Assembly (NCBI RefSeq): GCF_000383875.1
Contig: NZ_KB912882.1
Coordinates: 1 to 64,000 of the forward strand
From: Caldibacillus debilis DSM 16016
GTDB taxonomy: Bacteria > Bacillota > Bacilli > Bacillales > Caldibacillaceae
Reading direction: 5' to 3'
DNA length: 64,000 nucleotides
Shown here: positions 56,978-59,115 of the stretch, one piece after another
Numbering within the stretch: the first letter of the stretch is position 1
Layout of the letters: every line of letters begins with the position of its first letter
The notes under the pieces: generated by a model
Told to the model about the DNA's origin: nothing
The model's database searches: none
Seen by the model: the letters and a program-made list of their open reading frames with translations, nothing else
Made by a program: the position numbers and the translations under genes

Positions 56978-56982
56978 ACAGA

Positions 56983-57013
56983 AAAAGGCATTAGGGATCG
57001 CCTAATGCCTTTC
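56983..57013. terminator. Terminator of the arsenic-type locus (bidirectional shape)
   Basis: AAGGCATTAGG and CCTAATGCCTT arms with a T tract after it on the minus strand. Confidence 0.85.
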
Positions 57014-57022
57014 CTTGCGGTT

Positions 57023-57178
57023 TCAGCAACACTCGCGATCGGATCCGGACGGACAGCATTCCCGTTCCTTTGCGGATATGGGGACCATTTTTTCGCTTTC
57101 TTTCATTTCCACAATTTGAATAGCGCAGCAGCCTTGTTTTTCGCTGGATTTGCCCGAGAGAACTTTCAAGATGTTCAT
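57023..57178 (-). CDS. 51-residue protein with three Cys-Cys pairs
   Basis: Start ATG 57178 with a perfect GGAGGAATTCAC ribosome site, 12 nt after the permease stop; stop TGA at 57023-57025; then the terminator. The sequence has Cys pairs at 17-18, 41-42 and 50-51 (GCCAIQIVE, ECCPSGSDRECC). No signal peptide or membrane segment. It is the last gene of the permease operon. Vicinal thiols suggest binding of As(III) or another soft metal; the function is not established. Confidence 0.82.
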   Translation of the reverse strand: MNILKVLSGKSSEKQGCCAIQIVEMKESEKMVPISAKERECCPSGSDRECC

Positions 57179-57190
57179 GTGAATTCCTCC

Positions 57191-58057
57191 TTAAATGATA
57201 TAGAACAAAAATCCGGACAATGCCGCCATTGTTATGACGGAGGCGACAAACGCCAAAACCAGCTTTTTTCTAAAGATACCGTGCAACAGTGCGATCTCCG
57301 GCAGGCTTGCTCCTGCTGAGCTAATCAACAGCGCCATGACCGGTCCCAATGCCATCCCTTTTGCAATCAGGATTTGCGAGATGGGAATCATCGCGGAAAG
57401 GCGGATATACAAAGGGATCCCGATGATGGCTGCAAGGGGAACAAGCCACCACTTATCACCTCCCATATGGGTTGATATCCATTCCGTCGGTACGGCGCCG
57501 CGGATAATGGCTCCGATGCCCGCACCGATAAGCAAATACGGAAAAACCGTTTTCATTAAACGCAGGGTTTCCAACAAGGCATCCTTTGCTTTTCGTTTCT
57601 TTCCGAAATCGGCTTTTCCTTTCACCATGACCTGCTTCACTTGATTTTCAAATCCCAGTTTTTCAAGCGCAAAACCGGTCAGTATGGATAAAAGAGCGGT
57701 GATCATGGCGTAAGCGGCCGCCGTTTTTATTCCGAGCACCGCGGCCATGAGCGTCAAGATGGTCGGATCGAGCACAGGAGAAGCAAAGAGAAAAATCATC
57801 ACGATGCCGAAACGGACCTTCTGATTGAAAAGCGTTACGACGACCGGGATCGTAGAACAGGAGCAAAAGGGCGTCACGAAGGCAAACGCGACAGCGATCA
57901 GTGCCCCGAACAACGGATGGCGCTTTGATAACAAGCTTTGCATCTTCTCATAAGGAATATATCCTTCCAAAAGGTAAATGACGAATGAAATGCCCAAAAA
58001 TAAAAGGGTGAGTTCGGACACGATCGCAAGAAAATCTTGAAGAATCCCTGGATCCAT
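57191..58057 (-). CDS. ArsP/DUF318-type permease
   Basis: 288 residues, about eight membrane spans. The conserved VTPFCSCSTIPVVV motif with its Cys pair is in the second or third span (about 60-75), GIPLYIRLSAMIPI is further on, and the C-terminal half mirrors the N-terminal half. This family (PF03773; ArsP) includes exporters of trivalent organoarsenicals and related compounds. The operator-like dyad at 58080-58096 precedes it. In the same operon as the 51-residue Cys-rich protein. Confidence 0.88.
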   Translation of the reverse strand: MDPGILQDFLAIVSELTLLFLGISFVIYLLEGYIPYEKMQSLLSKRHPLFGALIAVAFAFVTPFCSCSTIPVVVTLFNQKVRFGIVMIFLFASPVLDPTILTLMAAVLGIKTAAAYAMITALLSILTGFALEKLGFENQVKQVMVKGKADFGKKRKAKDALLETLRLMKTVFPYLLIGAGIGAIIRGAVPTEWISTHMGGDKWWLVPLAAIIGIPLYIRLSAMIPISQILIAKGMALGPVMALLISSAGASLPEIALLHGIFRKKLVLAFVASVITMAALSGFLFYII

Positions 58058-58079
58058 AGGGTCTCTCTCCTTATCATTT

Positions 58080-58096
58080 ATTTGTAAAGTGCAAGT
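58080..58096 (-). promoter_or_regulatory. Operator-like dyad upstream of the permease
   Basis: ATTTGTAAAGTGCAAGT matches the marR-proximal dyad at 58615-58631 in 14 of 17 positions and lies 23 bp before the permease start. Confidence 0.65.
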
Positions 58097-58133
58097 ATAT
58101 CCTCAAGGAACAGGCAAGCTTGGAAGGCTTGCC

Positions 58134-58580
58134 TCAAAATAACGGTTTGCAGCAGACGCTCGATTTTGCCATGCATTCATTCAACAACTTTATCGAACGG
58201 ATGACGGTTTCTTTCTCAAATTCCGACATATGGGAAAAAATCTCATCCAAATACCGGTTGATTTCTTGATCGATGGCTGCCGCGACTGATTTCCCTTCGG
58301 CGGTCAACGACAAGGTGTATACCCTGCGGTCTTCGGGAAGCGGCGTTTTTTTTACGAGTCCCCTTTTTACCAAATTTTGAATCTGCCTGCTGAACGTCGT
58401 AATATCCATCCCCAATGCATCGGCCACCTGTTGCATGGATGGGGACTTTCCCTTATCAATTTCGTAAAGAATATGGCTTTGAACGAGCGAAATATTTTCG
58501 GAATCAATCGAACAGCAATTTTTATTTAACAATCCGAAACGGCGTGTCAACACTTGAAACAGCTCTCTCGTATTTTCCAT
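58134..58580 (-). CDS. MarR-family regulator with two Cys-Cys pairs
   Basis: 148 residues. Winged-helix core with SMQQVADALGMDITTFSRQIQNLVKRGLV (recognition helix) and EDRRVYTLSLTAEGK (wing). Unusual Cys pairs close to both ends: Cys22-Cys23 (LLNKNCCSIDSE) and Cys143-Cys144 (SSVCCKPLF). In a MarR dimer, N- and C-terminal helices of the two subunits are intertwined, so the pairs could come together and form a sensor for thiophilic metals. It sits between arsC and the permease gene; no ArsR is present. Confidence 0.85.
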   Translation of the reverse strand: MENTRELFQVLTRRFGLLNKNCCSIDSENISLVQSHILYEIDKGKSPSMQQVADALGMDITTFSRQIQNLVKRGLVKKTPLPEDRRVYTLSLTAEGKSVAAAIDQEINRYLDEIFSHMSEFEKETVIRSIKLLNECMAKSSVCCKPLF

Positions 58581-58614
58581 TTTTTCACCCCTATATGTTT
58601 ATATATAGCATATT

Positions 58615-58631
58615 ATTTGCAAATTGCAAAT
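58615..58631 (-). promoter_or_regulatory. Operator dyad at the marR promoter
   Basis: ATTTGCAAATTGCAAAT, a perfect odd-centred palindrome, overlaps the -35 region (TTGCAA then 16 bp to TATATA on the minus strand). This position fits autorepression. Confidence 0.8.
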
Positions 58632-58651
58632 TTTATTTTAAAAAAATAGAA

Positions 58652-58682
58652 TAAAAACAGCCGAGAACTTCTTCTCGGCTCC
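58652..58682 (-). terminator. Intrinsic terminator of arsC
   Basis: On the minus strand AGCCGAGAA-GAAG-TTCTCGGCT followed by GTTTTTAT. It separates arsC from the marR unit. Confidence 0.9.
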
Positions 58683-58692
58683 ACAATCCATC

Positions 58693-59115
58693 TTATTCGC
58701 CCGTCTCGGCAAATTTCTTGATGCGTTCGCCGATTTCATCGCGAACACGGCGGAATACGGCCAATCTTTCCTCTTCCGTTCCTTCCGCCTTTGCCGGATC
58801 ATCAAATCCCCAATGGACGCGTTTCACATGCGGCGGGGTCACCGGACAATGGTCCGCCGCATGGCCGCATAATGTCACAACGAGATCTGCTTGATCCAAT
58901 ATTTTCGGATCGATGACATCCGATGTCTGGTTCGAAATATCGATCCCCACTTCTTTCATAACCTTCACGGCGGCCGGATTTAATCCGTGAGCCTCGATGC
59001 CGGCACTGTACACTTCCCATTCATCGCCGAGATATTTTTTCGCCCATCCTTCAGCCATCTGGCTGCGGCAAGAATTGCCCGTACATAAAAAGTAAATCGT
59101 CTTCTTGTTTTTCAT
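58693..59115 (-). CDS. arsC: Arsenate reductase, thioredoxin-coupled (ArsC/LMW-PTP fold)
   Basis: 140 residues, ATG behind GGCGGAG. P-loop [15 protein letters not shown] (Cys11), resolving cysteines in [12 protein letters not shown] (Cys83 and Cys90) and [11 protein letters not shown]. Reduces arsenate to arsenite using the three-cysteine relay and thioredoxin. It has its own terminator; coupling with the downstream efflux unit is functional rather than transcriptional. Confidence 0.95.

Follow-up and report, generated by a model that had tools for sequence, protein, structure and literature searches.

A candidate MarR-type arsenical sensor with two vicinal cysteine pairs, linked to ArsP and a small CC-rich protein in Caldibacillus debilis and its relatives

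Expression of the permease gene arsP makes Escherichia coli resistant to trivalent monomethylarsenic, MMAs(III) (PMC11653729; here and below, papers cited by PMC number are cited for excerpts of their text), and an ArsR repressor with two conserved cysteines has been reported, from earlier work, to induce arsP by MMAs(III) (PMC9213503). The activation of arsP is labeled "mechanism unknown" in the legend to Figure 6 of a 2024 Paraclostridium study (PMC11653729), and a 2025 review lists arsP, arsJ and arsK as not detected in Bacillus ars operons (PMC12607644). Here we describe an arsP locus of Caldibacillus debilis DSM 16016, found at positions 57,023 to 59,115 of the first 64,000 nucleotides of contig NZ_KB912882.1 (the whole stretch that was analyzed, hereafter the window). 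The arsenate reductase gene arsC, a gene for a MarR-family regulator, arsP and a gene for a 51-residue CC-rich protein lie together in this locus, and the regulator carries two vicinal cysteine pairs, Cys22-Cys23 and Cys143-Cys144. We consider it likely that this dicysteine MarR is a derepressing sensor of trivalent arsenicals, controlling ArsP and a thiol-rich partner as a self-contained detoxification unit. The four genes and every cysteine position called in the initial annotation were borne out by the sequence, all on the minus strand, as was the absence of ArsR and ArsB; no ArsR, ArsB or Acr3 gene lies in the locus.

The regulator is a MarR by both Pfam models (PF12802, 44 bits against a cut-off of 27; PF01047, 42 bits against 24.6), and it fails the models of the ArsR metalloregulators (NF033788, 16.5 bits against 55) and of the zinc-responsive MarR AdcR (NF038251, 29.2 bits against 175). 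An AlphaFold2 monomer model adopts the MarR fold with a predicted local distance difference test (pLDDT) score of 82.4. Its best VIA-align match was the MarR structure 3bpx (Z 15.1, root-mean-square deviation 1.8, 127 residues aligned), and the 50 matches listed were all MarR-type entries with 13%–23% identity. A sequence search found no solved structure of the subfamily, the best PDB matches being remote MarRs with E about 1e-11.

We searched genome samples of the class and of the phylum with the window MarR protein, which gave matches at E 1e-15 or better in 86 of 398 and 40 of 398 genomes, respectively. We read 117 homologs, most with 3-kb flanks (96 from the class sample and 21 from the phylum sample), leaving out two partial class matches (G336 and G259:C23, fragments of 63 and 64 amino acids). 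Both cysteine pairs were kept in 105 of the 117; four had the N-terminal pair only, eight had neither and none had the C-terminal pair only (Fisher p 7e-10; here and below, p values treat related genomes as independent). Thus, the C-terminal pair was retained in 0/8 homologs lacking the N-terminal one. A CC at either end was found in none of 18 non-orthologous MarRs that served as the control set. Of the 36 phylum matches outside the class, 21 (mostly top-scoring) are within the 117; the other 15, scored separately, all have the N-terminal pair (by motif, L380 included), and 14 have the C-terminal pair. Both pairs were also present in all 80 loci kept from an earlier contig scan, a partly biased set, as one of its two search patterns contained the N-terminal CC. 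One of the 117, L271, has two C-terminal cysteines as CxxxxC, as do L294 and L295, which lie outside this count.

Homologs lacking a pair occupy several places in the phylogenetic tree, with L253, L257 and L266–L268 forming one group, L233 and L236 another, and L270, L271 and L281 standing apart. Both groups are without ars neighbors; L255 and L256 retain them. The control MarRs mostly group together (15/18), the other three falling elsewhere on very long branches. L233 and L236 (63%–66% identity), in which the pairs read SC plus a single C-terminal cysteine and no ars genes were found nearby, are natural controls for a cysteine-dependent function. L204 and L211 each hold two dicysteine MarR paralogs close together beside flavoprotein genes, with identities to the window MarR of about 70% and 42% (L204) and 67% and 41% (L211).

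Gene neighborhoods link the two cysteine pairs to arsenic genes. Under strict matching, an ars gene lies within 3 kb of 80 of the 105 both-pair homologs, compared with three of the 12 homologs lacking a pair (p 7e-4); within 1.3 kb the figures are 79/105 for both-pair homologs and 0/18 for control MarRs. The neighbors of the 105 include an ArsN1-type acetyltransferase (37, by a model that, like our flavoprotein model, was built from clusters merging more than one kind of protein), ArsP (28), ArsC (27), ArsM (23), ArsB (18), Acr3 (9), ArsD (9), ArsI (7) and ArsA (6). Sampled neighbors scored above the NCBIfam cut-offs for ArsN1a (two of three, L032 falling just below), ArsI, ArsM and ArsD, and RefSeq names on four plasmids agree with our assignments. 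The ArsN1, ArsP, ArsM and ArsI neighbors point to organic arsenicals. The initial annotation had proposed looking for conserved linkage of MarRs with NCC near residue 22 and a C-terminal CC to DUF318 permease genes and short CC proteins; this linkage was found, and it is broader than DUF318, with many MarR homologs adjoining other ars genes. An ArsI homolog (L078:5889-6371) has a cysteine-rich tail with additional CC pairs, and several ArsM proteins likewise have CC-rich ends.

The same neighbors bear on whether the regulator is instead a thiol switch like OhrR or MexR, sensing redox state or electrophiles. Its cysteines would then respond to oxidative or thiol stress by forming disulfides, mixed ones included, and arsenic would act only indirectly. 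OhrR exemplifies MarRs in which a reactive N-terminal cysteine has its partner close to the C terminus, and the model fold matches MexR, among many other MarRs. However, the recurrent neighbors are arsenic genes (peroxidase genes were not searched for), and vicinal pairs at both ends would exceed the needs of a one- or two-cysteine switch. We regard redox sensing as improbable.

The palindrome TTGCAnnnTGCAA is conserved as well. It stands, with zero or one mismatch, upstream of 85 of the 105 both-pair homologs. Among the 81 of at least 50% identity, 73 have it no more than 120 bases upstream of marR (53 exact); among the 24 more distant ones, 12 have it at this stringency and 21 with up to two mismatches. 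The corresponding frequencies in mononucleotide shuffles were 0.4% and 4%–5%. In relatives, the site before marR (O1) overlaps the −35 element of a promoter with a TATAA-type −10. We mapped exact sites in 195 loci, a pool of biased and unbiased sets in which some genomes are counted twice: 80 sites precede marR alone, 27 lie between marR and a divergent ArsN1 gene and 10 between marR and a divergent ArsR gene; 37 precede a flavoprotein gene, 22 ArsP, five ArsN1 alone, four ArsM and two ArsI. A further seven fall within marR or one of these genes, and 21 lie in other places. A site with zero or one mismatch was present in 31 of 43 marR–arsP gaps, some of them measured from possibly misplaced starts of open reading frames (ORFs). 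Besides O1, the source genome has a single exact site, which falls within predicted ORFs; we took it as a chance occurrence and rejected it as an operator. Regulation by this MarR is therefore probably local.

The small CC-rich protein recurs with ArsP across these genomes. Of 54 distinct ArsP genes, 40 are followed within 400 bases by a small ORF encoding two or more CC pairs, and 28 aligned peptides start like M-x-x-x-K-x-LFGKK, with C17 and C18 invariant. Most continue with CC-x-[VI]-x-I-x-E-V, and most have a late CC; the family motif, CC-x-[VI]-x-I-x-E-[VI], reads CCAIQIVEM in the window. The ratio of nonsynonymous to synonymous substitution rates (dN/dS) was 0.07–0.41 in eight pairs, indicating purifying selection, and the gene, which is preceded by AAGGAGG in the window, is a real coding gene. 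Neither Pfam nor NCBIfam, with its ArsD model, gave a match to the window protein at E up to 1, although short proteins generally score poorly. We considered an amphipathic N-terminal membrane anchor and dropped it, since 46%–87% of shuffles reach the observed hydrophobic moment (12 peptides).

A peptide profile search of the class sample gave 42 matches in 38 of 398 genomes. ArsP is directly upstream in 27 of the 30 loci returned (split over two ORFs in L300). Of the remaining three, L307 carries an ArsP fragment, L319 has a peptidase-like gene in between, and no ArsP was seen in L320. Thirteen of the 30 loci hold rows of the search profile; outside it the count is 14 of 17. Four loci titled Bacillus sp. 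(L054, L064, L087 and L098) carry MarR, ArsP and the CC peptide. The regulator ahead of ArsP and the peptide is a MarR in 20 of the 30 and an ArsR in five (L316, L321, L322, L323 and L327). A poultry-litter Staphylococcus plasmid has the order ArsR, permease and a 44-residue CC protein annotated as "hypothetical protein" (we found no phage record with DNA like this permease gene). Because the module of ArsP and CC peptide is headed by ArsR in these five loci and on the plasmid, MarR occupies what is elsewhere an ArsR slot. The peptide may hand substrate to ArsP. Alternatively, it may act as a metallothionein-like sink or form a structural part of ArsP. Relatives differ in peptide length, in how many CC pairs they have and in the number of tandem CCxVxIEEV modules (two or three in some peptides), as for a buffer, but the tight linkage behind ArsP in the nonprofile loci suggests a more specific role; we see the sink or subunit as a real possibility, somewhat short of even.

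We propose the following mechanism. In the absence of ligand, a MarR dimer would occupy two sites, the TTGCAnnnTGCAA palindrome in front of marR and another in front of arsP, and repress both genes. A trivalent arsenical, most likely methylarsenite, MAs(III), or another organoarsenical and possibly arsenite too, would bind the thiols of Cys22-Cys23 and Cys143-Cys144 and release the DNA. The arsenical site would probably span the dimer at the interlocking N- and C-terminal helices, where general MarR architecture suggests that the two pairs would come close together. MAs(III) fits a two-thiol site and As(III) a three-thiol site, and either may be the ligand of the MarR, as may another thiophilic species. 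ArsP would then export the arsenical, with the small CC protein as a thiol buffer or carrier alongside it. The initial annotation had read the locus as a MarR-based sensor of arsenicals or soft metals with a thiol carrier, which the linkage supports; the ligand, the thiol binding and the delivery to ArsP we infer.

Several observations weigh against arsenical sensing by this MarR. The support is computational, from sequence and predicted fold. The homolog counts come from related genomes and are not independent events. Strict matching placed no ars gene within 3 kb of 25 of the 105 both-pair homologs (one, L284, lies beside hgcA). The initial annotation had held that homologs losing the pairs and keeping the gene context would speak against the idea, and this is so in part: three of the 12 pair-lacking homologs keep an ars context, one of them L271 with its CxxxxC. 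The palindrome, too, is found with zero or one mismatch before three of these 12 (five with up to two mismatches) and near one of the 18 control MarRs (four with up to two). A consensus promoter scan of the window (threshold 9 of 12) found no marR promoter placed relative to O1 as the sequences of relatives suggest. In the model, residues 19–24 and 145–148 are poorly defined (pLDDT under 50), at Cys22-23 and in the C-terminal tail; we abandoned reading site geometry from the prediction, given this value at Cys22-23 and a monomer-only model.

Many of the both-pair homologs without a strict ars gene adjoin a flavoprotein. The flavoprotein cluster covers 40 loci and more than one kind of flavoprotein. 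Flavoproteins of this frequent-neighbor type (for instance L082:5503-6921 and L100:5470-6918) are related to ArsO/YpdA but score below those cut-offs, and their genes often have the same operator; some have an N-terminal CC. Two that were sampled score below every NCBIfam cut-off, with ArsO and YpdA as best models. These flavoproteins are perhaps organoarsenical oxidoreductases.

Outside the class, the 36 phylum matches adjoin an ArsM ORF in 27 cases (14/21 by loose matching including fragments, 13/15 by strict matching), hgcA in three and ArsP alone in one, with five adjoining none of these. The control of hgcAB is described as an open question, and MarR-family genes have been noted upstream of hgcA in Dethiobacter alkaliphilus and Geobacter daltonii (PMC10349881). 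We surveyed hgcA first in 20 genomes, centered on genome G546, and then in the phylum sample, where an HgcA search matched 31 genomes and returned 30 loci, 29 of them with NVWCAAGK. A MarR with an N-terminal CC is directly upstream at six of the 30, five of the six also having a C-terminal CC; an ArsR-type protein is present at eight of the 30. The palindrome occurs within two mismatches at four of the six. Three of the six MarRs are phylum-sample matches (33%–36% identical to the window MarR); the other three, more distant, are placed in the family on the strength of their cysteine pairs and of how they score with the L284 MarR. The tree contains three of the six (two of the more distant three, weakly placed). 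Loci with hgcA-linked dicysteine MarRs are L284:3098-4946, L333, L352, L356, L363, L364 and L368; L284 also encodes an HgcB-like ferredoxin with the tail NECCCE. Distant dicysteine MarRs are candidate regulators of mercury methylation in some Firmicutes.

These hgcA loci raise the question of a general soft-metal sensor, responding to Hg(II), Cu(I), Cd(II) or Sb(III) and located in arsenic islands by chance. In addition to the six loci in which distant members precede hgcA, one Paenibacillus plasmid has a gene for a heavy-metal P-type ATPase about 4 kb away. The scored Bacilli neighbors are nevertheless largely arsenic genes, a one-sided tally as no metal ATPase models were used, and we hold such a general sensor to be unlikely. 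A wider proposal combining these strands has, in our view, an even chance of holding: Firmicutes would possess a second class of sensors for thiophilic metal(loid)s, built on MarR and marked by both vicinal pairs and the operator TTGCAnnnTGCAA, which would take the slot of ArsR and govern arsM, arsP, arsN1, arsI and, in some non-Bacilli, hgcAB, with the CCxVxIEEV partner passing arsenical thiolates to ArsP. If so, such MarR genes would control the making, breaking or export of methylated and organic metal(loid)s.

The features of the locus are collected in Table 1. The marR, arsP and peptide genes appear to make up a single unit on the minus strand, which has an operator of its own and arsC as a neighbor. 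A terminator-like hairpin and the separate operator divide arsC from marR, so co-transcription of arsC with the other three genes is not obvious; arsC is probably on a separate transcript, and we doubt its place in a single four-gene operon on account of that hairpin. A consensus scan finds both terminator-like hairpins, in a total of four sites against a shuffle mean of 3.3. The GGCAAGC/GCTTGCC hairpin could act as an attenuator between marR and arsP.

Table 1. Features of the dicysteine MarR–ArsP locus (window positions)
Feature	Position	Strand	Evidence
arsC, thioredoxin-type arsenate reductase, 140 aa	58693..59115	-	TIGR02691 (arsC_pI258) 242.7 bits, cut-off 174.3
Terminator-like hairpin between arsC and marR, AGCCGAGAA-GAAG-TTCTCGGCT then T-run	58652..58680	-	9-pair stem 58680-58659
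Operator O1, palindrome TTGCAATTTGCAA, upstream of marR	58617..58629	.	Exact match to TTGCAnnnTGCAA
Dicysteine MarR regulator, 148 aa	58134..58580	-	PF01047/PF12802 above cut-off; conserved subfamily
Cys22-Cys23 pair (NKNCC) of MarR	58512..58517	-	Kept in 12/12 of alignment A1, 109/117 homologs
Cys143-Cys144 pair (SSVCC) of MarR	58149..58154	-	9/12 in A1; CC within last 22 residues in 105/117 homologs
Hairpin GGCAAGC-CTTCCAA-GCTTGCC directly 3' of marR stop	58113..58133	-	Sequence; several relatives with similar stems
Operator-like O2 (TTGCACTTTACAA, one mismatch) upstream of arsP	58082..58094	.	Match to operator palindrome
ArsP/DUF318 permease, 288 aa	57191..58057	-	PF03773 155.8 bits, cut-off 32.3
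51-aa CC-rich protein, CC at 17-18, 41-42, 50-51	57023..57178	-	Alignment A2, dN/dS, recurrence behind ArsP
Terminator-like hairpin 3' of peptide gene, GGCATTAGG-CGATC-CCTAATGCC-TTTTT	56982..57009	-	Sequence; scan gives shorter register 57003-56986

Acr3 and ArsB had no match in the source genome assembly (95.3% complete), and ArsP is present once; the usual pumps are thus not visible, if ArsC makes arsenite here. ArsR-type HTH_5 domains have 11 matches elsewhere in the genome, 10 of them above cut-off. The window permease scored below the models of the SO_0444 Cu/Zn efflux family (NF033936, 71.9 against 300 bits) and of the SaoE transporter (NF040736, 67.6 against 325 bits). Close MarR homologs were absent from seven same-family genomes (best E 1e-7 to 6e-6) and present in 11 of 53 other sampled relatives (E 2e-44 or better), and the locus looks acquired. 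The nearest named homologs (82%–87% identity) are from Geobacillus, Tuberibacillus, Parageobacillus, Anoxybacillus, Aeribacillus and one Bacillales metagenome-assembled genome. Several of these nearest relatives have ArsR-Acr3, then ArsC and MarR, then ArsP, ArsM or ArsN1-type genes, an arrangement of which the window locus seems to be a reduced form. MarR homologs are found on plasmids as well (31 records with E no worse than 1e-15, of which 22 exceed 60% identity). The window also holds a second MarR-like protein (61572-61114, minus strand), followed by dioxygenase-like and hydrolase-like genes; this unit (61572-59456) presumably resembles an MhqR-type quinone-response unit with a ring-cleaving dioxygenase.

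Literature searches of the open-license PMC library turned up neither a MarR arsenical sensor nor the CC protein among the titles and abstract openings listed, subscription papers lying outside this scope, and neither is described in the excerpts of PMC8060452, PMC11653729, PMC12607644, PMC6207618, PMC9137774, PMC7215868, PMC9213503, PMC10991351, PMC12563154, PMC10349881 and PMC7438021. The dicysteine MarRs are strong candidates for sensors of toxic metal compounds, in a class that has drawn little notice. The family offers a candidate regulator of arsP units in Bacillales and of some arsM, arsP and hgcA genes outside Bacilli; its distinct scaffold would be of use in arsenical biosensors, and with the small CC protein a widespread exporter would gain a partner that annotation has missed.

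Among described systems, the MAs(III)-selective ArsR4 is alike in being a cysteine repressor that controls arsP, but it belongs to the ArsR family, whereas the window regulator is a MarR with two vicinal pairs near the ends of the protein. The zinc regulator AdcR shares with it the idea of a metal-responsive MarR, although the window protein falls far below the AdcR model cut-off. OhrR and MexR combine the MarR fold with cysteine-based sensing, using nonvicinal cysteines and oxidant signals; the window MarR differs in its arsenic-gene context. ArsD is a small CC protein that hands As(III) to a pump component, ArsA; the 51-residue protein follows ArsP instead and has no NCBIfam match. The window ArsP belongs to the same Pfam family as the known PF03773 permeases and is distinguished by the CC peptide and MarR regulator that accompany it. 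Overall, the proposed system would resemble the control of arsP by ArsR, but built on a MarR scaffold.

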